Part shown: in pieces, positions 25,491-60,803 of the stretch | Layout of the letters: each line of letters begins with the position of its first letter | How positions within the stretch are numbered: the first letter of the stretch is position 1 | Source: Phlebopus portentosus | Lineage: Eukaryota; Basidiomycota; Agaricomycetes; Boletales; Boletinellaceae | NCBI GenBank assembly: GCA_037892935.1 | Contig: JAYXKI010000018.1 | Coordinates: forward strand, 310,001 to 374,000 | Direction of reading: 5' to 3' | DNA length: 64,000 bases | Translations under genes and position numbers: made by a program | Notes under the pieces: generated by a model | What the model saw: the letters and a program-made list of their open reading frames with translations, nothing else | What the model was told of the DNA's origin: nothing | Database searches by the model: none

Positions 25491-25951
25491 TGTTAGGCGG
25501 ATGGCTCAAGGACTGAGTCGAGGCAGGCCAACACAACAACAAACAAGCGTGAATGAGATAATCCCAAACACGTCGCTCAGGTCAAGACAGCTAAGACGAG
25601 GCTTAAGTCCAGACCGTCGAACGCTAGGTCGCAGTGAAGGTAAGTAGAATTCAGCAAACTAATAATACAAGAGTAGATACCTAGGTCGCAGTGAAGGTAA
25701 GTAGAATAGAAAGACAAGGAACGAAAGAGTCAAACTATCTACTTATATAGACTTTGGGTGCGGGAAAGGTCTACCCTAATGGGAAGTCACATGACAAGGA
25801 ATGGGATGATTAGTGAGCGTGATAGAACATTGTGGAATGTTCCGGCAAAAGGATGAATAAGCGCATAAGAAAAATAAAAGAAAAGAAAAAGAATATTAAA
25901 ATAAATGATGACGTCAGAAAAGAAAAGGAAAATGTTCGAGTCCTTACATCA
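25491..25951 (-). repeat. LTR of element Y (461 bp, 3' LTR)
   Basis: TG...CA ends: read on the minus strand it begins TGATGTAAGGACTCGAAC and ends CCGCCTAACA. It is preceded by the purine tract AAAGGGGGGG. The target duplication partner is outside the window. Confidence 0.75.
25624..25707. repeat. 27-bp direct repeat inside the Y LTR
   Basis: Two identical 27-bp copies (25624-25650 and 25681-25707) beginning CTAGGTCGCAGTGAAGGTAA, 57 bp apart. Possibly regulatory; role unknown. Confidence 0.6.
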
Positions 25952-29440: not shown

Positions 29441-29451
29441 TTCCTCCCCTT
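29441..29451 (-). other. Polypurine tract of M1
   Basis: AAGGGGAGGAA on the minus strand directly abuts the 3' LTR; it is the expected plus-strand primer for reverse transcription. Confidence 0.85.
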
Positions 29452-29625
29452 AAGATCCACTTCGGACTGCAAGGAGAGTGTGGATCCCTTAATTGTAGTA
29501 GCCATAATCTTGCTGTTTCGTATCGTTGCTTCCTAGACCAGGCCCTTCTTGTGTACTAGTGTCTCATTCCTCTTGTCTGGAATAACTGTAGCACTGTACA
29601 TCCAGAGTCCTCATCTCGTTATTGA

Positions 29626-29764
29626 TCATGTGACCTGACGCACAACCCATCCGGACAAAAGTGCGGCAGTCATGTGACTTAAACACTTCCTGTTTTGGAT
29701 GAGAGGGTGGCAATCACGTGATTGACGCTCAACCTCTTCTCAGAGAAAGGCGGTGGTCACGTGA
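29626..29764. promoter_or_regulatory. Cluster of CACGTG/CATGTG motifs
   Basis: Four sites in 140 bp: ATCATGTGAC (29625), GTCATGTGAC (29669), and TCACGTGA twice (29714, 29757), spaced about 43-44 bp apart. The palindromes are E-box-like, bHLH-type sites. They lie between pol and the 3' LTR; an enhancer role is inferred only from regular spacing. Confidence 0.45.
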
Positions 29765-29834
29765 CACTTGCTCAATAATTCAAAGCCTCGCTGAGTGTCG
29801 GCTTCCAACATACTAGATGCTTCCCAACATGCTA

Positions 29835-30029
29835 GGAATAGTTTAACGACCTATTCAGGTCAAATATGACCTCGATAGTGTCGGTCCCAACTTACAAGGT
29901 ACGTCCCAGTACGCTTGGAATAGTTTAATGACTTGTTCAGGTCAAATATGACCTCGATTAGTGTCGGTCCCAACTTACAAGGTACGTCCCAGTACGCTTG
30001 GAATAGTTTAATGACTTGTTCAGGTCAAA
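29835..30029. repeat. 82/83-bp tandem repeat, ~2.4 copies
   Basis: Units begin GGAATAGTTTAA at 29835, 29917 and 30000 (last one partial) and differ by a few bases and one indel. Between the pol stop and the polypurine tract of M1. Confidence 0.85.
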
Positions 30030-30042
30030 CATACAGGCCTTC

Positions 30043-33000: not shown

Positions 33001-35334
33001 CGGCTTGCCATCCTTCCCTATTGTCTTCTTGGCTATGACAAATACTGGTGTGCAAGTGTTTGCCTTTTCTTCAGCTGGTACTCGGTTTCCTACAACACGA
33101 ATCCATCCCTTCTTCAAGTCCTCGCGAATCCATTCTTCTACCGCTCACTTTTCGGCAGGAGCGAGTGGATATACCGGTCCAGGTTTCGGGAGCTCTGCTC
33201 CTGGTAGGAGCTCGATCTTCATGTCCCATTGTCCCGACTTCGGCAGCCGTTTGGCGGCGTCCTTGTCGAACCTATCCCTGAACTCCCATATTTGTTTTGG
33301 AAGAATTTCTTCGAGAGATTTGTTGCCAGCAGAGTCTGCCATCCTTTCATCGAGTGCTTTCTCCTGCGCATATTTTTGAGCTATGCTGTTATACTTGAGT
33401 AGGCGTTCTCTCCGAGATGCGACTTGTCGATGCTCTAGACGGCGGATCCAGTGAGGAGGCTTGGGTGGCCTTCCTCTTCGAGAGGCGTCCTCCGCTTCCA
33501 TAGAGGTAGCGGGCTTGTGCGATCCTAGGATACCCTTGAACTCCGTCTCAGATCCAGCTCTTCTCTCTAGCACTTTTCCTTCCACTTTGGGCAGCTGCAT
33601 AACCGAGTCAACAGGCGTGCGCCATCGGCGCCTCTTCTGCCCCTGCGAGAGCCCCTGCTCCATCGCGGCATAATTCGAGATGAACCTGTTACCTTTACCA
33701 TTTGTTTTCCCTGTTGGAGCAGGGCCCTGCATTTGGTTCTCAAACCGTGGTCTTCGCGGGCGCACTTGAGCTCCCGAAGCTAGCCTACTTGATGATTGCG
33801 GCGTACTAACTTCGGCCCTGTGCCAATTGAGTGGGACTACCCTCCCTTTGGGGTGGACCACTTTCCTAGACACTAGCCTACCCTTGAACGGCGTCTCATG
33901 TCTAGTCACTCCTCGGTCTCTCGTAGGAGGAGATCTCGCTAGGTGGCCGAACCTAGTACGCTTCGTAGCCTTAGTTCTACGGCGCTCCCGACCCGAAGTA
34001 CTCCTGCTTGTACCCCTGCTTCGTGTGGTGAAGCTTACCGACTGCTTCTGCACTGCCAGGGTTGAGTCATTTTGGCCCTCGTGCACGGATGGAGGAGTCC
34101 ACTCCACCCTAATACTCCTTATGACAGGGTTCGAGTCTGTACCACTTCCTCCACTCTTCTGTCGTCGTATCCTGAGCGGATCTGCTGTATAGTGCCCCGG
34201 CTTTCCTCCCTTCGGCGGCACACTAGGCTTCTTCCTTTTTGTTGTATCAGATCCCTCGGCATCGACCGTCATTTGCGCATGTATTTCTTCTCGCATTCTT
34301 GCCTGTGCTTCCGAAGTCGTTGGCGACGCTGCCATTCCGACGTTCTCCTGTATCGCCAGTAATTGGAGCCGTGCCGCATACATGCTGCCATACTCGTTGA
34401 AGAGTTCATCTTTACTTGCGCCCTTGTCCATGTCTCTAACCATGGTGCAGTAAACCGTGTTATCCGCATCTTCAAGACTGTCAAAGTCATGCCACTTCTG
34501 TTCGTCCTTAGTGATTTGGCACTTGTCCCCAAACCAGAAGAATTTCCAGCTTCCTTCCTGTTTGATGAAGGAAAGCTCCGGTGGTTTGTGCATGACTTCA
34601 TCGAACATGACAAGCGGCTTTGTCGTTTCCCTTTCCTTTCCTTTATCTGGTGGTACGATCGTAGGTTCTTCTTCTATGTCTTCCTTCTCGGTTTCTTGTC
34701 CTGTTTCGATGTCGCTGTGGTAGTAGACCCTAGTTTCCCAAGCTTCTTCCTTTTCATCATCGGCATCCCATTCGGGTGGAATGTAGTCTGGAATTCTTCG
34801 CCATTTTCTGCGTTTTCGGAGCTTCCTTGGGGCTAGGATTAGCTGTATGGAGCGCAATCGTGCTGTTCCATTAAAAGCGATTTCCTTCCCGCCTTTGCGA
34901 AGAATCCCCTTTGTCCAGTCGATGGTTGGCTTATGCTGTTCAAGCCAATCATTTCCTATGAGAAACTTGTCTTCGTGTGTATCTACCACCGCGATGTCCA
35001 TTAAACCTCTTGTAATCCCTGTGTCCACTATTGCTCTAACGTTCCGAGTCCATCCACCATGATTAATCGATCCATCAGCATTCCGGATGGTATAATTACC
35101 TTCTGCAGGCACTGTTCTCAGCCCTAGGCTCTGTACAACCGTGGGGCTAATAGTAGTGATCGCAGATCCGGAGTCAATCATAGCCGAGAGATTAACCTTT
35201 TTCTGTCCCTGAATGACGTCAATGGGTATAGTAGGATGGTTGGAATTTGGTCTAGCAATAGTCCATCGGCGCTTTATCTCTTGTATGTCCTTCGAGCCCT
35301 CGCCAGTGTCCGATGTCAACTGGCGGCCCTTCAA
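30043..35334 (-). pseudogene. M1 pol: PR-RT-RNase H-integrase-chromodomain, two stops
   Basis: A single frame of 1764 codons entered from gag by a -1 shift, interrupted by TGA at 33147-33145 and 31737-31735. At the first site the P2 and P3 copies have CGA. Order: aspartic protease (AMIDSGSAITTISP), a basic low-complexity spacer of several hundred residues, RT (DYRGLNAVV, QFGLMNAPAVFQR, YLDDIIVYAE), RNase H (LETDASNFAMGAVLSQ, NYPVMDKELLAIVKAL), integrase (zinc finger ending CDVCQRTK, then MDYVTGLP, ISDRGPQFAS, MERVNQEMEQ), GPYQVIAKHGLVNYELDLPK, and a chromodomain (YEVEAIRDMRK, YQVKWLGYPEEENTWEPVEG). Without the stops it would be complete; this is the only copy showing the 3' half of X pol. Confidence 0.9.
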
Positions 35335-36353
35335 AAATCCTCCTCGGAATCCTCCTCGAGGGAATACGAAGCCCGTTCCTTACACCTTGGTAACTTCGTT
35401 CTCTTGTCCAGTAGTTCTTCCATCTCAGAATCGCTGCTAATCCCAACTTCCCGGCATTTTAGGAAGCGGCCAGTCTTGCCAGATCGTCTCTTCTGCACCC
35501 GTCTCTTGTAGTTGGTTCGGTGTCCACGGCTTCCCTGTGTGTCTCGCCCTACGTTGTTGCAGTCCCGTGCGAAGTGACCTGTCTTGCCGCATGCCCAGCA
35601 TATCCCGGCATCTCCTCGGGACCCCCTAGTAAAGCGCCTAGACATGTCAATGTCCATAGGCTCACCCAGAAACTCAGCTGGACGGCGAGCTTCTGGGGGC
35701 ACTGGCGTGTACGATACCGCCTGCCCATCTTTAAACATAGGGGTGTATTTCCTATTACTGCCTATCACCTTGGCAGCCATCAGACTGGCCTCCAGATTAC
35801 TAGCGTTCTCCTTCCATTGGTTCAGGTCCCAACCTGGGTGGTCTGTATTCGTAAGCAGGGCCTTTAGGATCGTCTGATTGAGTCCTCTCTTGTACTCATA
35901 AATCAGCGCCTGGTGGTCGTAATGCTTTGGCAGCCTCATCCTAATATCGTCGAAGGCCCTGTTATACTGCTTCACCCGCGCCCGTTCCTGATAAATTGTC
36001 CTAATATTTCGCTCGGCTTCTTCTTGAAGTCCAAAAATGCCGTTATGGTTGAGCGCTAATTCGTTCCATAGATCGTCCTCGTCGTCCCATCCACCCTTCT
36101 TGTCCATAACAAGCTCATTGTTCGCATTCCGCTTGTAGGTGGAGACTAATTGATTTCTGTTCACGGCCCATTTGCCATTAACCCAAGTCTGAGCTTGACC
36201 TCGCAGACATTCCAGAATAATCTTAACCCTCTTGACTGGGTCGCTCGGATGTTTTTCATTCAACCGGCTGATCATTTGATTCTGGAAGTTCTCAAGCGAC
36301 TCATAAGGGTTTCCCTTAAACAAGGGATATTTCATGATGTCTTTGTTTGACAT
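35331..36353 (-). CDS. M1 gag
   Basis: 340 residues, intact. It begins MSNKDIMKYPLFKGNPYESL and has the retrotransposon capsid-type core (AQTWVNGKWAVNRNQLVSTY; EEAERNIRTIYQERARVKQY). A single CCHC zinc knuckle CWACGKTGHFARDC lies near residue 252, followed by a Lys/Arg-rich and then acidic tail (EEDSEEDF). The stop TGA overlaps the first bases of pol. Confidence 0.9.
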   Translation of the reverse strand: MSNKDIMKYPLFKGNPYESLENFQNQMISRLNEKHPSDPVKRVKIILECLRGQAQTWVNGKWAVNRNQLVSTYKRNANNELVMDKKGGWDDEDDLWNELALNHNGIFGLQEEAERNIRTIYQERARVKQYNRAFDDIRMRLPKHYDHQALIYEYKRGLNQTILKALLTNTDHPGWDLNQWKENASNLEASLMAAKVIGSNRKYTPMFKDGQAVSYTPVPPEARRPAEFLGEPMDIDMSRRFTRGSRGDAGICWACGKTGHFARDCNNVGRDTQGSRGHRTNYKRRVQKRRSGKTGRFLKCREVGISSDSEMEELLDKRTKLPRCKERASYSLEEDSEEDF

Positions 36354-36554
36354 ATTGACCTAGACGAATTCAACCAACATTTTTTTTTATGAGTATCACT
36401 CTCATTCAGCGCATTACAATAATACATGGTTTAGTAGCTAAGTTATCCAGCGAGTACCACCTCCGCTTTCCAACTAGCCACCTTACCCTTCCTCCCCGGT
36501 CGGTTCTTGGGCGTCTTCCTTCCTCCTGGCAAGCTCCCAGCTCTAAACCAGGGC

Positions 36555-38204
36555 CTATCTCCTTTCTTCCCGAGCTTCGTATCGTTCCTCGCCGCTTTCG
36601 TGTTCCTCGCTTTCCTCTTCTGTCTCCCAGTCGTCGTTCGCATCGAAGTATTCTTGCTCCTCGCTGGTTGGCTCTTCTACGTCGCTACCTCGCACCCAAA
36701 CTACCCTCGCCATGTTCGCTACCCCCTGCCTCGGTGGTCCCTCTCGTATGTCGAGAGAGTCCGATGGTATAGGGCAGCTGTTAGGATGAATGATAGGACC
36801 ATAGATGTAATCAGAGTCTGGGGAGTACTCACTGACCGCCTGGAGCCTTGCTTCTCTCTCCTCAAGCTCAAGAGCACTTGGAGTAGGCGATCCTGGCGGC
36901 GAGTCCTGGTGCGGGTGCTGGAGGTGGTTCCTTTCGACGTAGTGGCCGTTCCATCCCAGCCGTTGGATTGCTCCCTCGACGAGCTCTCCTTGCTCGTTCC
37001 ACATGAGTTCCCGGATTCCTGTGCCATACCCCGTCTCTTGAGTGTTGTCCGCCTCCCATGCTTCCCCAGCATCGGGAGGCGGTCCCCATCCGTCATTGGA
37101 TGGCCAGGGCTGTGGCGACTCAGGAATTACCTCCCTCAGCAGTTCTTCTGCTTGCTGGTCCAGGCTTCCGGGTTGCGTGTCTGTGGAGACGTAGTCCGGG
37201 AGATCTTCTTCAACTTCGATGCTTCCTTCGACCTCTTGTTCCTCTTGGGCGAGCGCAGTAGGCGCTACCAGCCCTCTTTCTGCTACTACTTCAGCGACAT
37301 AGCCTCTTCCGACTTCTACTGCCTGCTGTCGCAACTGCGACGACGGTTGTCCTGTTCGAGTGTCTGTTCCTCCTGGTTCCCTGCTCTGGCGAATGATCTC
37401 GACCATCTGATCCACAAAGCGTTCACTGGCTGGGATCAGGCTGGGCATCTGGTCGTCGTCGGAGTCTGAGCTCACGCTTGCAAAGCGGTTAGCTAGACTT
37501 AGGCCTCTACCTTGCAGCGGGGAGTCAGGGCTCAACCTTGCCCCTCCTCGCCTAGCTCGTTGCGTTAGGTAGGATTGACAAAGCCTAATCGTTTGTTGGA
37601 TCCGACGAATGCCTTCCGTGATCGAGTGCTGGGCCGCGAGTTCTTCCTCGGCATTGCTGATCCGGGCTCGAATAGCCTCGACCTGTTCGACCAGGTAGCT
37701 AGCCTGCGTGTGTAACTGCAGGAAGTCCGTACCAGTCAGCCAAATAATCTCTTGCTGGGAGTTGACCACTTGTTGAGCAAGGGCTGATTAACTGCCCTGA
37801 ATGGCCATTGTTACCGCTCCCAGAATACGAGCCTGCAGAATACCGAACGCGTAGTTGATCCGTACGTCTCGCTGTTCGCCTTCTCGCCTGAGGCTGGTGA
37901 TGACTGCCTCGGCGATTGCATCCCCGACATGTCCCTGAATATGCGCCAGAAACTCCCCCAGTGTCTGCCCTTCTATGGTAAGGTTCTCAGAGTATTGAGA
38001 GCCCATGTCGTAGAGTCGAGCGACAGTAGCTGTGAGAGTTCTGAGGGACCGATCAACGCTAGTAAGTCGATTGTCGAGGTCGATGACGGCGTGTCGCAGG
38101 GCGGAGACAACTTGGTTGGGTTGCCCGTCAGTACTGACCATTCGGTCCAAGCGTCCGTGTAGACTGTCGAGTCGTTCGCTGATGCGTGCCAGAGCGGATT
38201 CCAT
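36555..38204 (-). pseudogene. M1 ORF2 (coiled-coil/acidic protein) with one stop
   Basis: Same protein as the intact ORF2 of P1-P3 (about 549 residues from MESALARISERLDSLHGRL). A TAA at 37790-37788 replaces the CAA/CAG seen in the other copies, just after AIQGS. See the ORF2 entry of P2 for the description. Confidence 0.75.
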
Positions 38205-38890
38205 ACGTTCTCCAGGTCCGGGTTGAGGAACTGCCAGTCGTTGAGTCTGGAGTAAAAATCTCCGACCGGCACAACGGAATGGGGAACTTCTTTCGTTGTC
38301 TTGCCGTTCCACCCACGTCCATAGCGTTCCAAAGCCTCGAAAAAGGCTGACTCGACCTCGGAGTTGTTGAGCAACGACGTATACCAGGGAAGAAAGCCAG
38401 ATGAAGCAGAGTGTAAACCAGAGACTAGACCAACCAGCTTGCCACAGTTCCATCGGTGACATAGCTGTTTCGCAGTAGCGTAGTTGCCTTGATAGATTTG
38501 TAGTAGGACTTGGTGGAGGAAATGAGAATGTTCGAGTAGGGTGTATTCGAACGCTTTATATTCCTGACACAGAGCGAGTAGTTCTTCTTCAACTGGCGTC
38601 GGACCTCTGAGTGCCTCCCAATTGAAACTGTGTCCGTTCAATAGGTTGTCCGCGTGTACCAGCAAGAACTTCCTCCCAACTCTCTCGTGTCTTTCGGCGG
38701 TGATTTGAAGCTCCAGGGCGGATAGTATAACCGACCGGTAGGGTTCTAGGATAGGGGTGTTTGAGTGCTTCTTACCTCGATAGAAGTTTATCGTGCTAAA
38801 CGCCGAATTGACTTCTTCTTCGAATGTATGGAGCGCTCTAACAAAACTCCGATGGAGTGTGTAAGCCTGCTTTAGCCGTCGACGATACGC
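37973..38890 (-). CDS. M1 ORF1, pre-gag frame without ATG
   Basis: Open for 305 codons from the codon after a TAA (38893-38891) to TAG at 37975-37973, with no Met codon. Between M1 and P2, nearly all changes in the upstream overlap region (38462-38205) are silent in this frame, so it is a real coding frame. See the ORF1 entry of P2 for content. Confidence 0.6.
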   Translation of the reverse strand, partial: AYRRRLKQAYTLHRSFVRALHTFEEEVNSAFSTINFYRGKKHSNTPILEPYRSVILSALELQITAERHERVGRKFLLVHADNLLNGHSFNWEALRGPTPVEEELLALCQEYKAFEYTLLEHSHFLHQVLLQIYQGNYATAKQLCHRWNCGKLVGLVSGLHSASSGFLPWYTSLLNNSEVESAFFEALERYGRGWNGKTTKEVPHSVVPVGDFYSRLNDWQFLNPDLENVWNPLWHASANDSTVYTDAWTEWSVLTGNPTKLSPPCDTPSSTSTIDLLALIGPSELSQLLSLDSTTWALNTLRTLP

Positions 38891-39014
38891 TTATCGGTGA
38901 TCAGCTAATTGTATTGACAGGCACAGAAGAAACCCTCCCAGGGCAGAGCAATACTTACTGATCGATAGTGGGTATTGCACTATGAAACAGCAAGATTGAT
39001 TATCCCAGGATTGG

Positions 39015-39025
39015 AGCAAAATTAT
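39015..39025 (-). other. Self-primer binding site of M1
   Basis: ATAATTTTGCT on the minus strand, two bases inside the 5' LTR; exactly complementary to AGCAAAATTAT in the LTR at 39243-39233, the likely RNA 5' end. Confidence 0.6.
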
Positions 39026-39027
39026 AA

Positions 39028-40632
39028 TGTTAGGACCAGCGTTTTCGGACGAGGTGGTCAGTCCGAGCGTACCGGAACAAGTCCCTGCTTCCTCCTTCTG
39101 ACAATGTATAATTGGAGAGTAGAGTAGCGAAGGTTAGATGTACTACTAAGAAGCGAGCTATAGGCTCAAGCTTGACCCAGCAGTAGAGCAGAGGTTCAAT
39201 CAAAGGGGTACAGTTATGATTGAAAGTACAAAATAATTTTGCTGAGGGACAACACCCCGCTCAGCTGGCGCCTTAAATAAAGTTTCTACTGAATACTACC
39301 GACTACCAAATACTACCGACCATGCCTCGCCATTGGTCAGGACAATGTGTTTCAGCTGGTGTCACTACTACTTTCTTAAGTCTGTAGTACCACTGACAAC
39401 TCTGGTGGTGCTACCGAAACTCCTGGTTGCACCACCAACTACTTCCTTCCCTATTAGGCAGGCCCTAATTTCCTTCCGTTCCGAAGAAGCTTTCCCCAGG
39501 CTTCTGTCAATCTCCATTCCTATCACATGTTAATCCTTAACGCCAATCCTCCCACGAGAGACTTCTTCCATGTGTCGCGATCTCGCTTCGCCGGCGCTCC
39601 GTTACTCCGGCCGAGCTTCTGCCGTTAGTCTTCCATCATGGGGCTGACCGTTATCTCGGGATTCATGACCGGCAACCCCTGCCGATCTTCGGGGATTAAC
39701 CTTGGCGGCTGTGTAAATTTAGCAGACACTCTTCTGTGCCTAGCCGCGATATCGATGTCGGAGAATTGTAGTCCAGTACCCGACGTTAACCTGTATCTTC
39801 TTCCCAGGTGATTCGTCCCGCGCCATTCGTCGACTGTAATAACCCCTTCTTCCGATCGTTCCCATGCTTCTAGCATTCGATCCGTTGCTTCTTCGATAAG
39901 ACTTTCGACGTCCGATGGCGCCCTGTAATAGATTGGCCAATCGACTTCCACTGCAGTGTTTCGACACAAGGTCTGGTGACGATGCTGATTGATCCAAGCT
40001 CTCACGCCAACCTTCAGTGCATAGATATCCCTATCGCCGAGCCATACAGATACCTCGTGGTCGTATGCGCTCATTCCGCGGTTCAGTAATGGTTGGTCAA
40101 ACGTTCATTCTGAGGGTCCGGGTTTATGCCGAATCTTGACATCGGCTCCTTCCCTAGTTACTAAGCGCTCCACGAAGTTCTTGAGGAGCCACTCCGAAAG
40201 AACCCAACTCCTTTGGTATGCCAAATAGCAGTTTGTACAGACCAGGCTTTTATGAACAAAGCGTCTGGTTGCACTATGTCGATATTGTCTCTTCTGCAGG
40301 AGTTCCACGTATCTTGCGATGTTCCGTTCTTCCATGTCCACGTAGCTTCGCTCGGGTGGAGGAGTATGTCCAATATGCATTCCAGCTAGTCCTTGCTGTA
40401 AATCGTATGGGTCCTCCCTTTCGTCGCGTTCATCCTCGTAATATTGTCGATCGGGTTCCTCTTGAATATATTCCACAGCGACCTCCCCAGGTCCTTGCTG
40501 TATTAGTGGGCGAGAATCGCCTCCACTATTCTGTCCTTGAAGCCTTTCGACATGTTCTTGATTAGGCTGCATAATTCGGTGTGTAAAGTGTCTGATACCA
40601 CGCCGCATTGTATATCCACAATTTTCGTAACA
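39028..40632 (-). repeat. M1 5' LTR (L2, 1605 bp)
   Basis: Partner of L1 (27836-29440) with identical length and the ATCAC duplication outside. The TATA-like region and the AGCAAAATTAT primer (39243-39233) lie in its promoter-proximal third. Confidence 0.92.
39625..40608 (-). pseudogene. LTR-encoded protein, L2 copy, one stop
   Basis: Same ORF as 28433-29416 but with TGA at 40107-40105 in place of CGA, after KPGPSE. The identical stop is in L3 (41978-41980) and absent from L1, L4 and L5. Confidence 0.8.
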
Positions 40633-40637
40633 ATCAC
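40633..40637. other. Target-site duplication ATCAC of M1 (right)
   Basis: Partner of 27831-27835; the two bracket a complete element of 12,797 bp. Confidence 0.9.
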
Positions 40638-41451
40638 CTTCCATTTACCGTCTTGTTTCTGGAGAAGGACTCCACCAGTCGCAAAGTCCGACGCATCTGC
40701 TTCTACACGGAAAGGGTCCTCGTTGTTGGGTATCGCTAACATGGGAGGACTACTCAAACGACGCTTCAATTCCTCAAACGCTGCCTGCTCATCTTCGCCC
40801 CATTTCCATTCCACCTTACCCGTTAGGGTAGTCAAGGGTTTGACGACCGAACTGTAATCCTTAACAAAACGTCGCAACCAATTTCCTAATCCCAGGAATT
40901 GTTGCAGTTCGTGGACGTTCCTTGGAACTGGCCAGTCCTGTACTGCCGCCGTCTTCTTGGGATCCATTCGAACTTCGCCATTGCCAATAATGTGCCCGAG
41001 GTACTTGACTGTATCAACTTCGAACTCGCACTTCTGCGGCTTTAGGAAAAGTCCGTTTTGGCAAAGGATCTCAAAGACTCGTTTGGTGCGTCTGCGGTGT
41101 TCTTCTAGATCATTCGAGAAGATGAGAATGTCATCGAGGTAAATGATGACGATACCCTCATGAATTAGCTCCCGAAAGATGTCATTCATAAAGCCTTGGA
41201 ACGTCGCTGGCGCATTACACAAGCCAAAGAACATGACTGTGGGTTCAAATAAGCCTAGATTTGTCCGGAACGCTGCCTTCCACTCGTCTCCCTCGCGAAT
41301 CTGGATGTTGTAGTATCCCCAACGAACGTCGAGCTTCGTGATGTACCTTGCATCCTTAACCTTGTCGATGAGCTCATTTATCAGCGGCAATGGGTATTTG
41401 TTCTTGACCGTTCCTTCATTGAGCTTTCGATAGTCTTGGATTGCTCGTAAG
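40638..41451 (-). CDS. Element Y Pol, reverse transcriptase fragment
   Basis: A 271-codon open piece: QDYRKLNEGTVKNKYPLPL, ITKLDVRWGYYNIQI, FFGLCNAPATFQGFMNDIF, catalytic YLDDILIF, KYLGHIIG, then the start of RNase H (FRVEADASDFATGGVLLQKQ). It is cut on the right by P1 and on the left by M1, and continues in frame at 27835. Past 40633 the frame reads into the M1 LTR by chance. Confidence 0.88.
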
Positions 41452-41476: not shown

Positions 41477-42460
41477 ATGCGGCGTGGTATCAGACGCTTT
41501 ACACACCGAATTATGCAGCCTAATCCAGAGCATTTCGAAAGACTTCAAGGACAGAATAGTGGAAGCGATTCTCGCCCACTAGTACAGCAAGGACCTGGGG
41601 AGGTCGCTGTGGAATATATTCAAGAGGAACCCGATCGACGATATTACGAGGACGAACGCGACGAAAGGGAGGACCCATACGATTTACAGCAAGGACTAGC
41701 TGGAATGCATATTGGACATACTCCTCCACCAGAGCGAAGCTACGTGGACATGGAAGAACGGAACATCGCAAGATACGTGGAACTCCTGCAGAAGAGACAA
41801 TATCGACATAGTGCAACCAGACGCTTTGTTCATGAAAGCCTGGTTTGTGCAAACTGCTATTTGGCATACCAAAGGAGTTGGGTTCTTTCGGAGTGGCTCC
41901 TCAAGAACTTCGTGGAACGCTTAGTAACTAGGGAAGGGGCCGATGTCAAAATTCGGCATAAACCCGGACCCTCAGAATGAACGTTTGACCAACCATTACC
42001 GAACCGCGGAATGAGCGCATACGACCATGAGGTATCTGTATGGCTTGGCGACAGGGATATCTATGCACTGAAGGTTGGCGTGAGAGCTTGGATCAATCAG
42101 CATCGTCACCAGACCTTGTGTCAAAACACTGCAGTGGAAGTCGATTGGCCAATCTATTTCAGGGCGCCATCGGACGTTGAAAGTCTTATCGAAGAAGCAA
42201 CGGATCGAATGCTAGAAGCATGGGAACGATCGGAAGAAGGGGTTATTACAGTCGACGAATGGCGCGGGACGAATCACCTGGGAAGAAGATACAGGTTAAC
42301 GTCGGGTACCAGACTACAATTCTCCGACATCGATATCGCGGCTAGGCACAGAAGGGTGTCTGCTAAATTTACACAGCCGCCGAGGTTAACCTCCGATGAT
42401 CGACAGGGGTTGCCGATCCCAAATCCCGAGATAACAGTCAGCCCCATGATGGAAGATTAA
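41477..42460 (+). pseudogene. LTR-encoded protein, L3 copy, one stop
   Basis: ATG at 41477; TGA at 41978-41980 splits the 327-codon frame at the same codon as in L2. The rest of the frame is intact to PMMED. Confidence 0.8.
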
Positions 42461-47282: not shown

Positions 47283-48266
47283 ATGCGGCGTGGTATCAGA
47301 CACTTTACACACCGAATTATGCAGCCTAATCAAGAGCATTTCGAAAGGCTTCAAGAACAGAACAGTGGAGGCGATTCTCGCCCACTAAGACAGCAAGGAC
47401 CTGGGGAGGTCGCTGTGGATGATATTCAAGAGGAACCCGATCGACGATATTACGAAGACGAACGCGATGAAAGGGAGGATCCATACGATTTGCAGCAAGG
47501 ACTAGCTGGAATGCACATTGGACATACTCCTCCACCCGAGCGTAGCTACGTAGACATGGAAGAACGGAACATCGCAAGATACGTGGAACTCCTGCAGAAG
47601 AGACGATATCGACATAGTGCAACCAGACGCTTTGTTCATGAAAGCCTGGTTTGTACAAACTGTTATTTGGCATACCAAAGGAGTTGGGTTCTTTCGGAGT
47701 GGCTCCTCAAGAACTTCGTGGAGCGCTTAGTAACTAGGGAAGGGGCCGATGTCAAGATTCGGCATAAACCCGGACCCTCAGAACGAACGTTTGATCAACC
47801 ATTGCCAAACCGCGGAATGAGCGCATACGATCACGAGGTATCTGTATGGCTCGGCGACAGGGATATCTATGCACTGAAGGTTGGCGTGAGAGCTTGGATC
47901 AATCAGCATCGTCACCGGACCTTGTGTCGAAACACTGCAGTGGAAGTCGATTGGCCAATCTATTACAGTGCGCCATCGGACGTCGAAAGTCTTATCGAAG
48001 AAGCAACGGATCGAATGCTAGAAGCATGGGAACGATCGGAAGAAGGGGTTATTACAGTCGACGAATGGCGCGAGACGAATCACCTGGGAAGAAGATACAG
48101 GTTAACGTCGGGTACCGGACTACAATTCTCCGACATCGATATCGCGGCTAGGCACAGAAGAGTGTCTGCTAAATTTACACAGCCGCCAAGGTTAATCTCC
48201 GAAGATCGGCAGGGGTTGCCGGTCGCGAATCCCGAGATAACGGTCAGCCCCATGATGGAAGACTAA
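47283..48266 (+). CDS. LTR-encoded protein of element X (L4)
   Basis: Intact 327-codon ORF from the ATG at LTR nucleotide 25; identical or nearly so to the L5 copy and about ten replacements from L1 (for example VEYIQ in L1 against VDDIQ here). Description under 28433-29416. Confidence 0.75.
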   Translation: MRRGIRHFTHRIMQPNQEHFERLQEQNSGGDSRPLRQQGPGEVAVDDIQEEPDRRYYEDERDEREDPYDLQQGLAGMHIGHTPPPERSYVDMEERNIARYVELLQKRRYRHSATRRFVHESLVCTNCYLAYQRSWVLSEWLLKNFVERLVTREGADVKIRHKPGPSERTFDQPLPNRGMSAYDHEVSVWLGDRDIYALKVGVRAWINQHRHRTLCRNTAVEVDWPIYYSAPSDVESLIEEATDRMLEAWERSEEGVITVDEWRETNHLGRRYRLTSGTGLQFSDIDIAARHRRVSAKFTQPPRLISEDRQGLPVANPEITVSPMMED

Positions 48267-52556: not shown

Positions 52557-55505
52557 AGGGCCGCCAGTCAACATCGGACACTGGCGAGGGCTCGAAGGAC
52601 ACACAAGAGATAAAGCGCCGATGGACTATTGCTAGACCAAACTCCAACCATCCCACTATACCCATTGACGTCATTCAGGGACAGAAAAAGGTTAATCTCT
52701 CGGCTATGATTGACTCCGGATCTGCAATCACTACTATTAGCCCCATGGTTGTACAGAGCCTAGGGCTGAGAACAGTGCCTGCAGAAGGTAATTATACCAT
52801 CCGGAATGCCGATGGATCGATTAATCATGGTGGATGGACTCGGAACGTCAGAGCAATAGTGGACACAGGGATTACAAGAGGTTTAATGGACATCGCAGTG
52901 GTGGATACGCACGAAGACAAGTTTCTCATAGGAAATGATTGGCTTGAACAGCATAAGCCAACTATCGACTGGACAAAGGGGATTCTTCGCAAAGGCGGGA
53001 AGGAAATTGCATTTAATGGAACGGCACGATTGCGTTCCATACAGCTAATCCTAGCCCCAAGGAAGCTCCGGAAACGCAGAAGATGGCGAAGAATTCCAGA
53101 CTACATTCCACCCGAATGGGATGCCGATGATGAAAAGGAAGAAGCTTGGGAAACTAGGGTCTATTACCACAGCGACATCGAAACAGAACAAGAAACCGAG
53201 AATGAAGACATAGAAGAAGAACCTACGATCGTACCACCAGACAAAGGAAAAGAAAAGGAATCAGCAGCACCGCTTGTCACGTTCGAAGAAGTCATGCACA
53301 AGCCGCCAGAACTCTCCTTCGCTAAGCAAGAAGGAAGATGGAAATTCTTTTGGTTCGGGGACAAGTGCCGAATAACGAAGGACGATCAAAACTGGCACAA
53401 CTTTAACAGTCTCGAGGATGCAGATGGTGCAGTATACCGCACCATGGTCAGAGAAATGGACAAGGGCGCCAAACATGATGAACTCCTCGATGAATATGGC
53501 GGCATGTATATGGCGCGTCTTCAGGTGATAGCGATTCAGGGAGGCCTGGGAACAACGACCTCACCAACAACATCTGAAGACCAAGCAAGAGTGCGGGAAG
53601 AAATACAGGCACAAATGACAATCGACGCAGAAGGATCTGATACGAGTAGAAGGAAGAAGCCTAGTGTACCACCTAAAGGAGGAAAGCCTGGACACTACGC
53701 ACCTGATCCTCTCAAGATGCGTCGACAGAAGAGCGGAGGAAGTGGTACGGATTCAAACCCTGTCATAAGGAGTATAAGGGTGGAGTGGACTCCTCCATCC
53801 ATGCACGAGGGCCAAAATGACTCAACCCTGGCAGTGCAGAAGCAGTCGGTAAGCTTCACCACACGAAGCAGAGGTACAAGCAGGAGTACTTCGGGTCGGG
53901 AGCGCCGTAGAACTAAGGCTACGAAGCGTACTAGGTTCGGCCACCTAGCGAGATCTCCTCCTACGAGAGACCGAGGAGTGACTAGACATGAGACGCCGTT
54001 CAAGGGTAGGCTAGTGTCTAGGAAAGTGGTCCACCCCAAAGGGAGGGTAGTCCCACTTAAGTGGCACAGGGCCGAAGTTAGTACGCCGCAATCATCAAGT
54101 AGGCTAGCTTCGGGAGCTCAAGTGCGCCCGCGAAGACCACGGTTTAAGAACCAAATGCAGGGCCCTGCTCCGACAGGGAAAACAAACGGTAAAGGTAACA
54201 GGTTCATTTCGAATTATGCCGTGATGGAGCAGGGGCTCTCGCAGGGGCAGAAGAGGCGCCGATGGCGTACGCCTGTTGACTCGGTCATGCAGCCGCCCAA
54301 AGTGGAAGGAAAAGTGCTAGAGAGAAGAGCTGGATCTGAGACGGAGTTCAAGGGTATCCTAGGATCGCACAAGCCCGCTACCTCAATGGAAGCGGAGGAC
54401 GCCTCTCGAAGAGGAAGGCCACCCAAGCCTCCTCACTGGATCCGCCGCCTAGAGCATCGACAAGTCGCATCTCGGAGAGAACGCCTTCTCAAGTATAATA
54501 GCATAGCTCAAAAATATGCTCAGGAGAAAGCACTCGATGAAAGGATGGCAGACTCTGCTGGTAACAAATCTCTCAAGGAAATTCTTCCGAAACAAATATG
54601 GGAGTTCAGGGATAGGTTCGACAAGGACGCCGCCAAACGGCTGCCGAGGTCGGGACAATGGGACATGAAGATCGAGCTCCTACCAGGAGCAGAGCTTCCG
54701 AAACCTGGACCTGTATATCCACTCGCTCCTGCTGAAAAGCGAGCGGTAGAAGAATGGATTCGCGAGGACCTAAAGAAGGGATGGATTCGTGTTGTAGGAA
54801 ACCGAGTACCAGCTGAAGAAAAGGCGAACACTTGCGCACCAGTATTTGTCATAGCCAAAAAGACAATAGGGAAGGATGGCAAGCCGGAGTATAGAATTGT
54901 TATCGACTATAGAGGGCTGAATGCGGTGGTCATTCCAGACCACCAACCAATGCCTCTGTTACATATGCTCCCGGACGATCTTGCGCATGCCAAATGGTTC
55001 TCGACACTGGATTTGCGAAGTGGGTATAACAACATTCGAATACACCCTGGGCACGAGAAGTATGCCGCCTTTAGGACTCACATGGGAGTATACCAGCCGA
55101 TGGTAATGCAGTTCGGATTAATGAATGCACCTGCGGTATTCCAACGTGCAATGAACGAGCTCTTTCAGGACATGATTGGGCAGGGCATACTCATTTATCT
55201 TGATGACATTATAGTCTATGCGGAAATGGAACAGGAACATTGGGACCTGCTAGCAGAGGTATTGCGCAGGTTAAGGGAAGCAGACTTCTTCTGCAAGCCA
55301 GAGAAGTGCTACTTCGGAAAGAAGGAACTCGACTATCTAGGATTTGTGGTTAACCAGTCGGGCATGCAGATGGATCCCTACAAGGTAAAGGCGGTTCAAG
55401 AATGGCCAGATTTGTCAAGCAAGCGAGACATTCGAAAGTTTATCGGTTTTGCAAACTTCTACCGGAAATTTATCGAAGGCTTCGCCAAGATCGCTAGGCC
55501 ATTAA
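52553..55505 (+). pseudogene. P2 pol, protease to RT, cut by P3
   Basis: About 984 codons, open throughout: protease DSG near residue 53, a spacer of over 500 residues rich in Arg/Lys/Ser/Pro, then RT (VFVIAKKTIGKDGKPEYRIV; YLDDIIVYAE near residue 882) to FAKIARPL, where the P3 LTR starts. RNase H, integrase and chromodomain lie beyond the window. Confidence 0.9.
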
Positions 55506-57110
55506 TGTTACGAAAATTGTGGATATACAATGCGGCGTGGTATCAGACACTTTACACACCGAATTATGCAGCCTAATCAAGAGCATTTCGAAAGGCTTCA
55601 AGAACAGAACAGTGGAGGCGATTCTCGCCCACTAAGACAGCAAGGACCTGGGGAGGTCGCTGTGGATGATATTCAAGAGGAACCCGATCGACGATATTAC
55701 GAAGACGAACGCGATGAAAGGGAGGATCCATACGATTTGCAGCAAGGACTAGCTGGAATGCACATTGGACATACTCCTCCACCCGAGCGTAGCTACGTAG
55801 ACATGGAAGAACGGAACATCGCAAGATACGTGGAACTCCTGCAGAAGAGACGATATCGACATAGTGCAACCAGACGCTTTGTTCATGAAAGCCTGGTTTG
55901 TACAAACTGTTATTTGGCATACCAAAGGAGTTGGGTTCTTTCGGAGTGGCTCCTCAAGAACTTCGTGGAGCGCTTAGTAACTAGGGAAGGGGCCGATGTC
56001 AAGATTCGGCATAAACCCGGACCCTCAGAACGAACGTTTGATCAACCATTGCCAAACCGCGGAATGAGCGCATACGATCACGAGGTATCTGTATGGCTCG
56101 GCGACAGGGATATCTATGCACTGAAGGTTGGCGTGAGAGCTTGGATCAATCAGCATCGTCACCGGACCTTGTGTCGAAACACTGCAGTGGAAGTCGATTG
56201 GCCAATCTATTACAGTGCGCCATCGGACGTCGAAAGTCTTATCGAAGAAGCAACGGATCGAATGCTAGAAGCATGGGAACGATCGGAAGAAGGGGTTATT
56301 ACAGTCGACGAATGGCGCGAGACGAATCACCTGGGAAGAAGATACAGGTTAACGTCGGGTACCGGACTACAATTCTCCGACATCGATATCGCGGCTAGGC
56401 ACAGAAGAGTGTCTGCTAAATTTACACAGCCGCCAAGGTTAATCTCCGAAGATCGACAGGGGTTGCCGGTCGCGAATCCCGAGATAACGGTCAGCCCCAT
56501 GATGGAAGACTAACGGCAGAAGCTCGGCCGGAGTAACGGAGCGCCGGCGAAGCGAGATCGCGGCACATGGAAGAAGTCTCTCGTGGGAGGATTGGCGTTA
56601 AGGATTAACATGTGATAGGAACGGAGATCGATAGAAGCCTGGGGAAAGCTTCTTCGGAATGGAGGTAGATTAGGGCCTGCCTAATTGGGAAGGAAGTAGT
56701 CGGTGGTGCTACCAGGAGTTTCGGTAGCGCCACCAGAGTTGCCAGTGGTACCACCGACTCAAGAAAGTGGTGGTGAAACCAGCTGAAACACATTGTCCTA
56801 ACCAATGGCGAGGCAGGGTCGGTAGTATTTGGTAGTCGGTAGTATTCAGTAGAAACTTTATTTAAGGCGCCAGCTGAGCGGGGTGTTGTCCCTCAGCAAA
56901 ATTATTTTGTACTTTCAATCATAACTGTACTCCTTTGATTGAACCTCTGCTCTACTACTGGGTCAAGCTTGAGCCTATAGCTCGCTTCTTAGTAGTACAT
57001 CTAACCTTCGCTACTCTACTCTCCAATTATACATTGTCAGAAGGAGGAAGCAGGGACTTGTTCCGGTACGCTCGGACTAACCACCTCGTCCGAAAATACT
57101 GGTCCTAACA
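55506..57110 (+). repeat. P3 5' LTR (L5, 1605 bp)
   Basis: TG...CA ends; essentially identical to L4 (one difference noticed, near the end of the LTR ORF). Primer AGCAAAATTAT at 56895-56905. Confidence 0.92.
55530..56513 (+). CDS. LTR-encoded protein of element X (L5)
   Basis: Intact 327 codons, same protein as L4. Ends ITVSPMMED, about 380 nt upstream of the likely RNA start. Confidence 0.75.
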   Translation: MRRGIRHFTHRIMQPNQEHFERLQEQNSGGDSRPLRQQGPGEVAVDDIQEEPDRRYYEDERDEREDPYDLQQGLAGMHIGHTPPPERSYVDMEERNIARYVELLQKRRYRHSATRRFVHESLVCTNCYLAYQRSWVLSEWLLKNFVERLVTREGADVKIRHKPGPSERTFDQPLPNRGMSAYDHEVSVWLGDRDIYALKVGVRAWINQHRHRTLCRNTAVEVDWPIYYSAPSDVESLIEEATDRMLEAWERSEEGVITVDEWRETNHLGRRYRLTSGTGLQFSDIDIAARHRRVSAKFTQPPRLISEDRQGLPVANPEITVSPMMED

Positions 57111-57112
57111 TT

Positions 57113-57123
57113 ATAATTTTGCT
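57113..57123 (+). other. Self-primer binding site of P3
   Basis: ATAATTTTGCT two bases after the LTR; complementary to 56895-56905. Confidence 0.6.
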
Positions 57124-57247
57124 CCAATCCTGGGATAATCAATCTTGCTGTTTCATAGTGCAATACCCACTATCGATCAGTAAGTATTGCTCTGCCCTGG
57201 GAGGGTTTCTTCTATGCCTGTTAATACAATTAGCTGATCATCGATAA

Positions 57248-58165
57248 GCGCATCGTCGACGGCTAAAGCAGGCTTACACACTCCATCGGAGTTTTGTTAG
57301 AGCGCTCCATACATTCGAGGAAGAAGTCAATTCGGCGTTTCGCACGATAAACTTCTATCGAGGTAAGAAGCACTCAAACACCCCTATCCTAGAACCCTAC
57401 CGGTCGGTTATACTATCCACCCTGGAGCTTCGAATCAACGCCGAAAGACACGAAAGAGTTGGGAGGAAGTTCTTGCTTGTACACGCGGACAACCTATTGA
57501 ACGGACACAGTTTTAATTGGGAAGCACTCAGAGGTCCTACGCCGGTTGAAGAAGAACTACTCGCTCTGTGTCAGGAATATAAAGCGTTCGAATATACCTT
57601 ACTCGAACATTCTCATTTCCTCCATCAAGTCCTTTTACAAGTTTATCAAGGCAACTATACTACTGCGAAACAACTATGTCACCGATGGAACTGTGGCAAG
57701 TTGGTTGGTCTAGTCTCTGGTTTACACTCTGCATCGTCTGGTTTTCTTCCATGGTATACGTCATTGCTCAACAACTCCGAGGTCGAATCAGCCTTCTTCG
57801 AGGCTTTGGAACGCTATGGACGTGGGTGGAACGGCAAGACAACGAAAGAAGTTCCCCATTCCGTCGTGCCGGTCGGAGATTTCTACTCCAAACTCAACGA
57901 CTGGCAGTTCCTCAACCCGGACCTGGAGAACGTATGGAATCCGCTCTGGCACGTATCAGCGAACGACTCGACAGTCTACACGGACGCTTGGACCGAATGG
58001 TCAGTGCTGACGGGCAACCCAACCAAGTTGTCTCCGCCCTGCGACACGCCGTCATCGACCTCGACAATCGACTTACTAGCGTTGATCGGTCCCTCAGAAC
58101 TCTCACAGCTACTGTCGCTCGACTCTACGACATGGGCTCTCAATACTCCGAGAACCTTACCGTAG
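57248..58165 (+). CDS. P3 ORF1, pre-gag protein, no ATG
   Basis: Same frame and content as P2 ORF1; translated parts compared are identical. Confidence 0.6.
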   Translation, partial: AHRRRLKQAYTLHRSFVRALHTFEEEVNSAFRTINFYRGKKHSNTPILEPYRSVILSTLELRINAERHERVGRKFLLVHADNLLNGHSFNWEALRGPTPVEEELLALCQEYKAFEYTLLEHSHFLHQVLLQVYQGNYTTAKQLCHRWNCGKLVGLVSGLHSASSGFLPWYTSLLNNSEVESAFFEALERYGRGWNGKTTKEVPHSVVPVGDFYSKLNDWQFLNPDLENVWNPLWHVSANDSTVYTDAWTEWSVLTGNPTKLSPPCDTPSSTSTIDLLALIGPSELSQLLSLDSTTWALNTPRTLP

Positions 58166-59583
58166 AAGGACAGACACTGGGGGAGTTTCTGGCGCATATT
58201 CAGGGACATGTCGGGGATGCAATCGCCGAGGCAGTCATCACCAACCTCAGGCGAGAAGGCGAACAGCGAGACGTACGGATCAACTACGCGTTTGGTATTC
58301 TTCAGGCTCGTATTCTGGGAGCGGTAACAATGGCCATTCAGGGCAGTCAGTCAGCCCTTACTCAACAAGTGGTCAACTCCCAGCAAGAGATTATTCGGCT
58401 CACTGGTACGGACTTCCTGCAGTTACACACGCAGGCTAGCTACCTGGTCGAACAGGTTGAGGCTATTCGAGCCCGGATCAGCAATGCCGAGGAAGAACTC
58501 GTGGCCCAGTACTCAATCACGGAAGGCATTCGTCGGATCCAACAAACGATTAGGCTTCGTCAATCCTACCTGACGCAGCGAGCTAGGCGAGGAAGGGCGA
58601 GGTTGAGCCCTGACTCCCCGCTGCAAGGTAGAGGCCTAGGTCTAGCCAGCCGCTTCGAAAGCGTGAGCTCGGACTCCGACGACGACCAGATGCCCCACCT
58701 GATCCCAGCAAGCGAACGCTTTGTGGATCAGATGGTTGAGATCATTCGCCAGAGCAGGGAACCTGAAGGAACGGACACTCGAACAGGACAACCGTCGTTG
58801 CAGTTGCGACAGCAGGCAGTAGAAGTTGGAAGGAACTATGTTGCTGAGGTAGTTGCGGAACGAGGGCTGGTAGCACCTAATGTGCTCGCCCAAGAGGAAC
58901 AGGAAGTCGAAGGAAGCATCGAAGTTGAAGAAGATCTCCCGGATTACGTCTCCACAGAAACGCAACCCGGAAGCCTGGACCAGCAAGCAGAAGAACTGCT
59001 GAGGGAGGTGATTCCCGAGTCACCACAGCCCTGGCCATCCAACGACGGATGGGGACCGCCTCCCGATGCTGGGGAAGCATGGGAGGCGGACAACACGGCG
59101 GAAACGGGTTATGGCACGGGAATCCGGGAGCTCATGTGGAATGAGCAGGGAGAACTCGTCGAGGGAGCGATTCAACGGCTGGGATGGAATGGCCACTACG
59201 TCGAAAGGAACCACATTCAATACCCGCACCAGGACTCGCCGCCAGGATCGCCTACTCCAAGTGCTCTTGAGCTTGAGGAGAGAGAAGCAAGGCTCCAGGC
59301 GGTCAGTGAGTACTCCCCAGACTCTGATTATATCTATGATCCTATCAATCGTCCTAATAGCTGCCCTATACCATCGGTCTTTCTCGACATACGAGAGGGA
59401 CCACCAAGGCAGGGGGTAGCAAACATGGCGATGGTAGTTTGGGTGCGAGGTAACAATGTAGAAGAGCCAACCAGCGAGGACCAAGAGTACTTCGATGCGA
59501 ACGACGAATGGGAGACAGAAGAGGAAAGCGAGGAACACGAAAGCGGCGAGGAACGATACGAAGCTCGGGAAGAAAGGAGATAG
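57934..59583 (+). CDS. P3 ORF2, coiled-coil/acidic protein
   Basis: 549 residues, same protein as P2 ORF2; overlaps ORF1 by 232 nt. Confidence 0.7.
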   Translation: MESALARISERLDSLHGRLDRMVSADGQPNQVVSALRHAVIDLDNRLTSVDRSLRTLTATVARLYDMGSQYSENLTVEGQTLGEFLAHIQGHVGDAIAEAVITNLRREGEQRDVRINYAFGILQARILGAVTMAIQGSQSALTQQVVNSQQEIIRLTGTDFLQLHTQASYLVEQVEAIRARISNAEEELVAQYSITEGIRRIQQTIRLRQSYLTQRARRGRARLSPDSPLQGRGLGLASRFESVSSDSDDDQMPHLIPASERFVDQMVEIIRQSREPEGTDTRTGQPSLQLRQQAVEVGRNYVAEVVAERGLVAPNVLAQEEQEVEGSIEVEEDLPDYVSTETQPGSLDQQAEELLREVIPESPQPWPSNDGWGPPPDAGEAWEADNTAETGYGTGIRELMWNEQGELVEGAIQRLGWNGHYVERNHIQYPHQDSPPGSPTPSALELEEREARLQAVSEYSPDSDYIYDPINRPNSCPIPSVFLDIREGPPRQGVANMAMVVWVRGNNVEEPTSEDQEYFDANDEWETEEESEEHESGEERYEAREERR

Positions 59584-59780: not shown

Positions 59781-60803
59781 ATGTCAAACAAAGATATCAT
59801 GAAGTATCCCTTGTTTAAGGGAAACCCTTATGAGTCGCTTGAGAACTTCCAGAATCAAATGATCAGCCGGTTGAATGAAAAACATCCGAGCGACCCAGTC
59901 AAGAGGGTTAAGATTATTTTAGAATGTCTGCGAGGTCAAGCTCAGACTTGGGTTAATGGCAAGTGGGCCATAAACAGAAATCAATTAGTCTCCACCTACA
60001 AGCGAGATGCGGATGGCAAGCTTGTTATGGACAAGAAGGGTGGATGGGACAGCGAGGACGATCTATGGAACGAATTAGCGCTCAACCACAATGGCATCTT
60101 TGGACTTCAAGAAGAAGCCGAGCGGAATATTAGGACGATTTATCAGGAACGGGCGCGGGTGAAGCAGTATAACAGGGCCTTTGACGACATTAGGATGAGG
60201 CTGCCAAAGCACTACGATCATCAGGCACTGATTTACGAGTACAAGAGAGGACTCAATCAAACGATCCTAAAGGCCCTGCTTACGAATACAGACCACCCAG
60301 AATGGGACCTGAACCAATGGAAGGAGAACGCTAGCAATCTGGAGGCCAGTCTGATGGCTGCCAAGGTGATAGGCAGCAATAGGAAGTACACCCCTATGTT
60401 TAAAGATGGGCAGGCGGTATCGTACACGCCAGTGCCCCCAGAAGCTCGCCGTCCAGCTGAGTTTCTGGGTGAGCCTATGGACATCGACATGTCTAGGCGC
60501 TTTACTAGGGGGTCCCGAGGAGATGCTGGGATATGCTGGGCATGCGGCAAGACAGGTCACTTCGCACGGGACTGCAACAACGTAGGGCGAGACACACAGG
60601 GAAGCCGTGGACACCGAACCAACTACAAGAGACGGGTGCAGAAGAGACGATCTGGCAAGACTGGCCGCTTCCTAAAACGCCGGGAAGTTGGGATTAGCAG
60701 CGATTCTGAAATGGAGGAACTACTGGACAAGAAAACGAAGTTACCAAGGCGTAAGGAACGGGCTTCGTATGCCCTCGAGGAGGATTCCGAGGAGGATTTT
60801 TGA
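59781..60803 (+). CDS. P3 gag
   Basis: 340 residues, intact, identical in protein sequence to P2 gag where compared; stop overlaps pol by the same GATTTTTGA. Confidence 0.9.
   Translation: MSNKDIMKYPLFKGNPYESLENFQNQMISRLNEKHPSDPVKRVKIILECLRGQAQTWVNGKWAINRNQLVSTYKRDADGKLVMDKKGGWDSEDDLWNELALNHNGIFGLQEEAERNIRTIYQERARVKQYNRAFDDIRMRLPKHYDHQALIYEYKRGLNQTILKALLTNTDHPEWDLNQWKENASNLEASLMAAKVIGSNRKYTPMFKDGQAVSYTPVPPEARRPAEFLGEPMDIDMSRRFTRGSRGDAGICWACGKTGHFARDCNNVGRDTQGSRGHRTNYKRRVQKRRSGKTGRFLKRREVGISSDSEMEELLDKKTKLPRRKERASYALEEDSEEDF

Follow-up and report, generated by a model that had tools for sequence, protein, structure and literature searches.

Long terminal repeats (LTRs) are usually treated as control sequence, and genes are sought between them. 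The Sag protein of mouse mammary tumour virus (MMTV) is made from the 3′ LTR copy. Sag is described as an LTR-encoded protein (PMC11998498), and the last genes of foamy viruses are named between the envelope and the LTR, with an internal promoter (PMC7828637). Among plant elements, the title of a reference in PMC11963269 presents the extra protein of Grande as nuclear and with its own promoter, and accessory open reading frames (ORFs) of plant LTR retrotransposons have been placed in the internal region (PMC7264820). In Tf1 and Tj1, which are self-priming, the start of the RNA is complementary to the primer-binding site (PMC4600332), and a figure legend in a survey of fungal chromoviruses lists an additional ORF of unknown function, the accompanying section giving no LTR placement for it (PMC2864245). 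Here we characterize an ORF inside the LTRs of X, a Ty3/Gypsy retrotransposon family, in a 64,000-nucleotide stretch of Phlebopus portentosus DNA (contig JAYXKI010000018.1, positions 310,001 to 374,000; this whole stretch is called the window). Judged from its sequence, this U3 ORF is almost certainly a real gene.

The X protein resembles Sag in being coded in the LTR upstream of the predicted RNA start. It differs from Sag in that its host is a fungus and its element a chromovirus, in that its ORF starts at LTR nucleotide 25, and in that the ORF gives no Pfam match to Sag and no PDB sequence match at E values up to 1. In parallel to the internal promoter of the foamy virus tas/bel genes, X has a phased array of sequence boxes just before its 3′ LTR that may act as a promoter. 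Unlike the X ORF, foamy virus tas is not wholly within U3, and Pfam reveals no sequence relation between tas/bel and the X ORF. As in the plant elements Grande and Retand, an extra protein is encoded near the 3′ end, theirs being internal whereas that of X is in the LTR itself. X and the related family Y share with Tf1/Tj1 a primer-binding site complementary to the predicted RNA start, here over 11 nt, from which self-priming is predicted; the Tf1 self-priming match is also 11 nt long. X differs in having two additions, a gene in U3 and, ahead of gag, an ORF of 635 codons, and to our knowledge Tf1 and Tj1 have no U3 gene. By analogy, the X gene would work like a U3 accessory gene of complex retroviruses, yet it is by sequence no member of any such family. 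The design of an LTR-coded gene is already known from MMTV sag, and its version in a fungal chromovirus appears to be new. None of the open-access titles, abstracts and passages covered described a protein gene inside a fungal retrotransposon LTR, in agreement with the preliminary description of this DNA, which knew of no fungal Gypsy example; subscription papers were outside the scope of this search.

Copies of the U3 ORF and selection on its protein

The preliminary description, made from the letters alone, had reported a 327-codon frame that is carried by all five X LTRs of the window. Comparison within the window and across the genome shows that the frame, which runs from ATG to TAA, is real and that all five LTRs carry it (Table 1). 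It spans LTR nucleotides 25–1008, or 61% of the X LTR length. The longest ATG-initiated ORF in 500 simulated LTRs was 199 codons (mean 87), and a chance origin of a 327-codon ORF is therefore excluded. As had also been stated, the frame is intact in L1, L4 and L5 and is broken in L2 and L3 by a common stop, which we locate at codon 168. This stop is a C-to-T change at a CpG (LTR position 526) found in 7 of the 97 copies used for variant analyses.

A search of the 38.4-Mb genome (23 contigs) with the U3 ORF returned at least 122 matching places that are 84–100% identical. The best 100 of these 122, meaning the most similar, constitute the copy set, and variant analyses were performed on 97 of them, without the truncated copies L021, L086 and L099. 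The ORF is open in 76/100 copies, and both candidate start codons (ATG at codons 1 and 13) as well as the TAA are kept in all 100. Forty copies are 5′ LTRs with TTATAATT directly after them, 42 are 3′ LTRs with the purine tract GGAGGAA directly before them, 15 are solo LTRs flanked by target duplications of 5 bp, and three are unclassified. Because the copies sort into these classes, the X repeats are true LTRs. The ORF is open in 32/40 5′ LTRs, 31/42 3′ LTRs and 10/15 solo LTRs. Matching target duplications gave 34 combinations of 5′ and 3′ LTRs, 29 of them less than 2% divergent, and eight matched pairs are identical, which indicates that X was recently active. An extra A at LTR position 1006, at the stop codon and preserving TAA, marks a group of 38/100 copies.

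We binned ORF variants according to how many copies share them; singletons mostly arose after insertion, while many-copy variants were passed on by replication. Variants present in at least 10 copies comprise 20 replacement and 47 silent changes versus 42.5 and 20.4 expected (binomial P = 4e-10). This is contrasted by 64 replacement and 43 silent changes among singletons (Fisher test against the common class, P = 1.7e-4), and variants in 3–9 copies comprise 72 and 89. After correction for mutation type and CpG, the replacement to silent ratio is 0.65 for singletons, 0.72 for variants in two copies, 0.37 for those in 3–9 copies and 0.20 for those in at least 10. The same series reads 0.53, 0.44, 0.23 and 0.21 for non-CpG changes and 1.20, 1.88, 0.69 and 0.17 for CpG changes. 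The fall of this ratio with copy number indicates selection on the protein during multiplication of the element that becomes weaker after insertion. Differences between sister LTRs in the 29 pairs of less than 2% divergence, all post-insertion, amount to 56 replacements, 36 silent changes and 7 stops. One 3′ LTR stands in two of these pairs, so matching by target duplication has mispaired at least one of them.

The reading frame is also apparent in the distribution of changes. Common variants in the ORF fall 8, 8 and 51 on the three codon positions (51/67 at the third base), whereas those in the non-coding remainder of the LTR (11, 19 and 11) show no phase (P = 0.21). Only two indels occur within the ORF, of 3 and 9 bp, versus 15 in the 597-bp remainder, none of which is a multiple of three (P = 2.6e-5). 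Over the whole ORF, L1 and L5 differ by 19.5 silent and 13.5 replacement changes, a ratio of replacement to silent rates (dN/dS) of 0.187. The corresponding values are 0.12 for gag, 0.16 for the pol N-terminus, 0.04 for reverse transcriptase (RT), and 0.57 and 0.145 for two parts of the 635-codon ORF. Selection on the protein, which had been proposed from part of L1 and L5 compared by eye, is thus borne out over many copies, the ratio for widely shared variants lying far from 1.

The closest database match to the U3 ORF comes from Sanghuangporus sanghuang (Basidiomycota, Hymenochaetales); this hypothetical protein is 95% identical and belongs to a cluster of 26 member sequences. Next are two S. 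vaninii proteins (65% and 62% identical), and the core described below is nearly unchanged in the 65% homologue. Three protein searches for distant relatives, with a method that needs shared 5-residue words, returned only S. sanghuang and S. vaninii.

Within the genome, the nearest other family is Y, whose RT is 68% identical to that of X. The Y LTRs (1,504 bp, 99.87% alike) contain an ORF of 246 codons from LTR nucleotide 57. The X and Y proteins compare with an hhalign E of 3.6e-5 and probability 71, and their local score of 109 exceeds the maximum of 60 seen in 1,000 shuffles. Copies of the Y ORF lie ~10 kb apart flanking RT in five Y elements, and the frame is free of stops in 12/28 near-full-length Y copies. 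A genome search with the Y protein gave 144 places. Thirty belong to family Y; the remaining 114, at E 2e-6 to 9e-4, are mostly X copies known from the X ORF search, with at least nine absent from the X list. On these comparisons, the Y LTR ORF is homologous to the X U3 ORF and occupies the same LTR position, so that the refuting condition named beforehand, absence of the ORF from related families, does not hold for the next family. A third family, Z (RT 51% identical), has an LTR ORF of 213 codons, with copies ~10.8 kb apart around RT in 11 elements. Its motif CQTCARA...HNSC resembles the X–Y pattern, which is held by 17/20,000 shuffles of Z. The hhalign probability is 0.6 with an E of 0.1, shuffles are not significant for X–Z and S. 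vaninii–Z, and Y–Z is borderline. We therefore do not at present count Z as a proven homologue, as the similarity is not significant and only pattern and position favour it. A fourth family in the genome has an RT 44% identical.

Comparison with Y also bears on the earlier view that the protein has no recognisable domain. That view stands for Pfam, where a scan of the U3 ORF found no family above cut-off, and for PDB sequences, where a search with the protein found no match at E up to 1. It does not extend to the comparison with Y, which reveals an invariant CxxCxxAxQxxW followed by HxxxC. The seven core residues are unchanged in 97/97 X copies and are found again in Y as well as in the protein of S. 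vaninii. CxxCxxAxQxxW is shared by all three, and the spacing from W to HxxxC in X is 76 residues. Despite this invariance of the C..C and H...C residues, the structure predictions that had been suggested gave low-confidence models and no usable fold, with a mean predicted local distance difference test score (pLDDT) of 37.7 for the whole ORF (A3) and 41.3 for the core (A5). Weak Pfam matches to DUF7419 and GST_C_7 were set aside, their scores being far under the cut-offs.

Placement in U3 and candidate routes of expression

A TATA-like box and an 11-nt exact complement of the primer-binding site lie in this order downstream of the ORF, and the RNA start is likely at AGCAAAATTAT. None of 300 shuffles for X equals the self-priming match. 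Family Y is laid out alike: its TATA is at LTR nucleotide 1298 and its 11-nt match at 1333, with an identical offset from the LTR end. Since these two signals put the RNA start after the ORF, the ORF would lie wholly in U3; its placement upstream of TATA and RNA start, as first described, thus gains an independent signal in the self-priming match. Such a position would leave the 5′ LTR copy outside the element's own RNA, skipped by the element's own promoter, and would make the 3′ LTR copy the last gene of the genomic RNA.

Based on this arrangement, the U3 protein is quite likely expressed from the 3′ LTR copy, and we infer translation from a 3′ subgenomic RNA. Such an RNA could arise by splicing from the GTAAGT that follows the 5′ LTR, which is kept in 39/40 5′-LTR copies, to a pyrimidine-rich CAG before the 3′ LTR. 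The acceptor-like CTCTCCTTGCAG/TCCGA is kept in 42/42 X copies, and its CAG starts 29 nt upstream of the 3′ LTR. In family Y, ATTCTCCTTTTAG/TCCGA stands at the equivalent position, with TTCTCCTTTTAG/TCCGA as the counterpart of the X acceptor-like site. Two points weigh against splicing: GTAAGT is missing from Y, and conservation beside the purine tract may reflect priming. Alternatively, the RNA could start at an internal promoter marked by the four phased TCACRTGA boxes. This array ends ~186 bp before the 3′ LTR, and four boxes were found in 0/2,000 simulations of the stretch. Most of the 42 3′-LTR copies preserve the CACRTG cores of the three boxes that lie within the 300 bp examined across copies.

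Possible role and rival explanations

We consider the U3 ORF to be probably a functional accessory gene of a Ty3/Gypsy chromovirus, contained wholly within U3. That its protein is a regulator of the element is a proposal we hold tentatively. We base the idea of a metal-binding regulator on the C and H residues that do not vary, on the way selection acts on the ORF, and on the parallel with U3 genes in complex retroviruses. Metal might be bound through CxxC...HxxxC, and the protein might act in trans on the element's own nucleic acid, be it in transcription, silencing escape or RNA handling. On a wider view, we regard it as nearly an even chance that a fungal chromovirus lineage independently evolved the complex-retrovirus layout, in which U3 codes for a trans-acting regulator that is made from a 3′ subgenomic RNA and further proteins come from the leader and from upstream of gag, and that this layout persisted in X, Y (RT differing by 32%) and perhaps Z (49%).

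A fragment of a host gene, captured by chance and now decaying as a passenger, would account for the 24/100 copies that are not open and for the C-to-T changes at CpG that make up 8/16 stop-making alleles. Yet silent changes strongly predominate among the shared variants, Y has retained a homologue at this LTR position, and the places listed by three ORF searches, part of which were inspected, gave no recognisable paralogue outside LTRs. The codon-phase pattern largely refutes the passenger explanation, and we judge it very improbable. It is hardly credible that the ORF is instead a conserved, untranslated control region of U3 that is open by chance, although U3 regions contain enhancers and the TATA box follows the ORF. 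The third-base excess of common variants and the frame-keeping nature of all ORF indels speak for a translated sequence, and X and Y are alike as proteins, yet blastn with the X LTR found no match to Y loci at 1e-20.

If the U3 ORF is an accessory gene, its protein could also restrict new copies, by copy-number or superinfection control, instead of helping the element. We think this unlikely, as purifying selection is strongest in variants transmitted by replication, which fits a gene needed for spread, and solo LTRs are no more intact than 5′ or 3′ LTRs. In its favour, the open frames among solo LTRs indicate that the ORF is able to persist after the internal genes are lost, and the LTR-coded Sag of MMTV protects against related viruses (PMC11998498). 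The protein might instead of regulating the element serve as a structural or integration cofactor, made late and associated with Gag or integrase, which we find similarly doubtful; Pfam gives no capsid or integrase match for the U3 ORF, and the usual Gag and integrase are already present in the element. This explanation can draw on the U3 ORF constraint being near that of gag, and nucleocapsid and integrase proteins likewise contain patterns resembling metal-binding C..C...H...C.

If a fungal chromovirus has a U3 gene under selection, and a second family a homologue of it, then a layout like that of nef or sag would not be confined to vertebrate retroviruses. Solo LTRs could then count as gene copies. 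With the gene placed in the LTR, a complete insertion carries two gene copies and a solo LTR one, and the genome holds >100 portable copies. Since a public protein collection lists the ORF as hypothetical mushroom proteins (the 26-member cluster), such elements may inflate mushroom gene counts.

Element structure and neighbouring insertions

Table 1. Positions in the window of the X features discussed in the text.
Feature	Position	Strand	Remarks
LTR L5	55506-57110	+	1,605 bp, TGTTAC...CTAACA ends; 5′ LTR; the element's 3′ LTR (L012) is outside the window
U3 ORF of L5	55530-56513	+	327 codons, ATG to TAA, intact; starts at LTR nt 25
Conserved core pattern	55899-56174	+	C124xxC127xxA130xQ132xxW135 ... 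H211xxxC215
TATA-like box TTTATTTAA	56857-56865	+	LTR nt 1352
AGCAAAATTAT, likely start of R	56895-56905	+	LTR nt 1390; exact 11-nt complement of primer-binding site
Primer-binding site ATAATTTTGCT	57113-57123	+	Predicted self-priming; bases 3-13 after 5′ LTR
Candidate splice donor GTAAGT	57180-57185	+	70 nt after 5′ LTR
635-codon internal ORF	57676-59583	+	Upstream of gag; no Pfam family above cut-off
gag	59781-60803	+	340 codons; CCHC knuckle
LTR L1	27836-29440	-	3′ LTR of two-LTR element 27836-40632
U3 ORF of L1	28433-29416	-	Intact
CAG of acceptor-like ACTCTCCTTGCAG/TCCGA	29467-29469	-	Before 3′ LTR purine tract
Four TCACRTGA boxes	29626-29764	-	43-44 bp apart, between pol and 3′ LTR
pol of L1/L2 element	30043-35181	-	Protease, RT, RNase H, integrase, chromodomain; broken into several ORFs
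LTR L2	39028-40632	-	5′ LTR; U3 ORF 39625-40608, stop at codon 168
LTR L3	41452-43059	+	U3 ORF 41477-42460, stop at codon 168 as in L2
LTR L4	47259-48863	+	U3 ORF 47283-48266, intact

X is by its sequence a Ty3/Gypsy chromovirus. Protease, RT, RNase H, integrase and chromodomain are present in that order (Pfam and ORF order), together with TG...CA LTR ends, a purine tract and 5-bp target duplications. A Pfam scan of X recognised no env. The 635-codon ORF shows no significant similarity to its positional counterpart in Y, 277/1,000 shuffles scoring as high. Before and over its start runs an open leader frame (57248 to at least 57690) that is alike in X and Y (L112), with a local score of 67 that 0/1,000 shuffles reached. 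By eye, the Y leader frame may join the next ORF via a short retained intron (GTAAGG...TTTAG). Directly after the pol stop of the L1/L2 element, ~3 tandem copies of an ~83-bp unit are visible by eye (29780-30030, minus strand). Between pol and the 3′ LTR of Y (L111:2350-3960, complement), we noted by eye an ORF of ~89 codons and an apparent two-exon gene for a small single-span membrane protein, with the intron still present at the DNA level. In family Z, an open frame of 397 codons lies between pol and the 3′ LTR (L115:693-1883).

The X insertions from 41452 to 64000 and beyond the window are nested. The L4 element (target duplication CAAGG) inserted into the protease region of the L3 element (GTAAG), and the L5 element (ATTAA, at 55501-55505) in turn inserted into the RT of the L4 element. 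The LTR pairs of the L3, L4 and L5 elements diverge by 0.44%, 0 and 0, respectively. A pol from a different Gypsy family (25949-27769 and 40503-41234, minus strand) is seemingly split by the X element at 27836-40632, as judged from its ORFs. Elsewhere in the genome, four solo LTRs on four contigs (L106, L107, L109 and L110) share the target duplication ACCCC and the few flanking bases that are visible, a pattern that points to segment duplication rather than to four insertion events.
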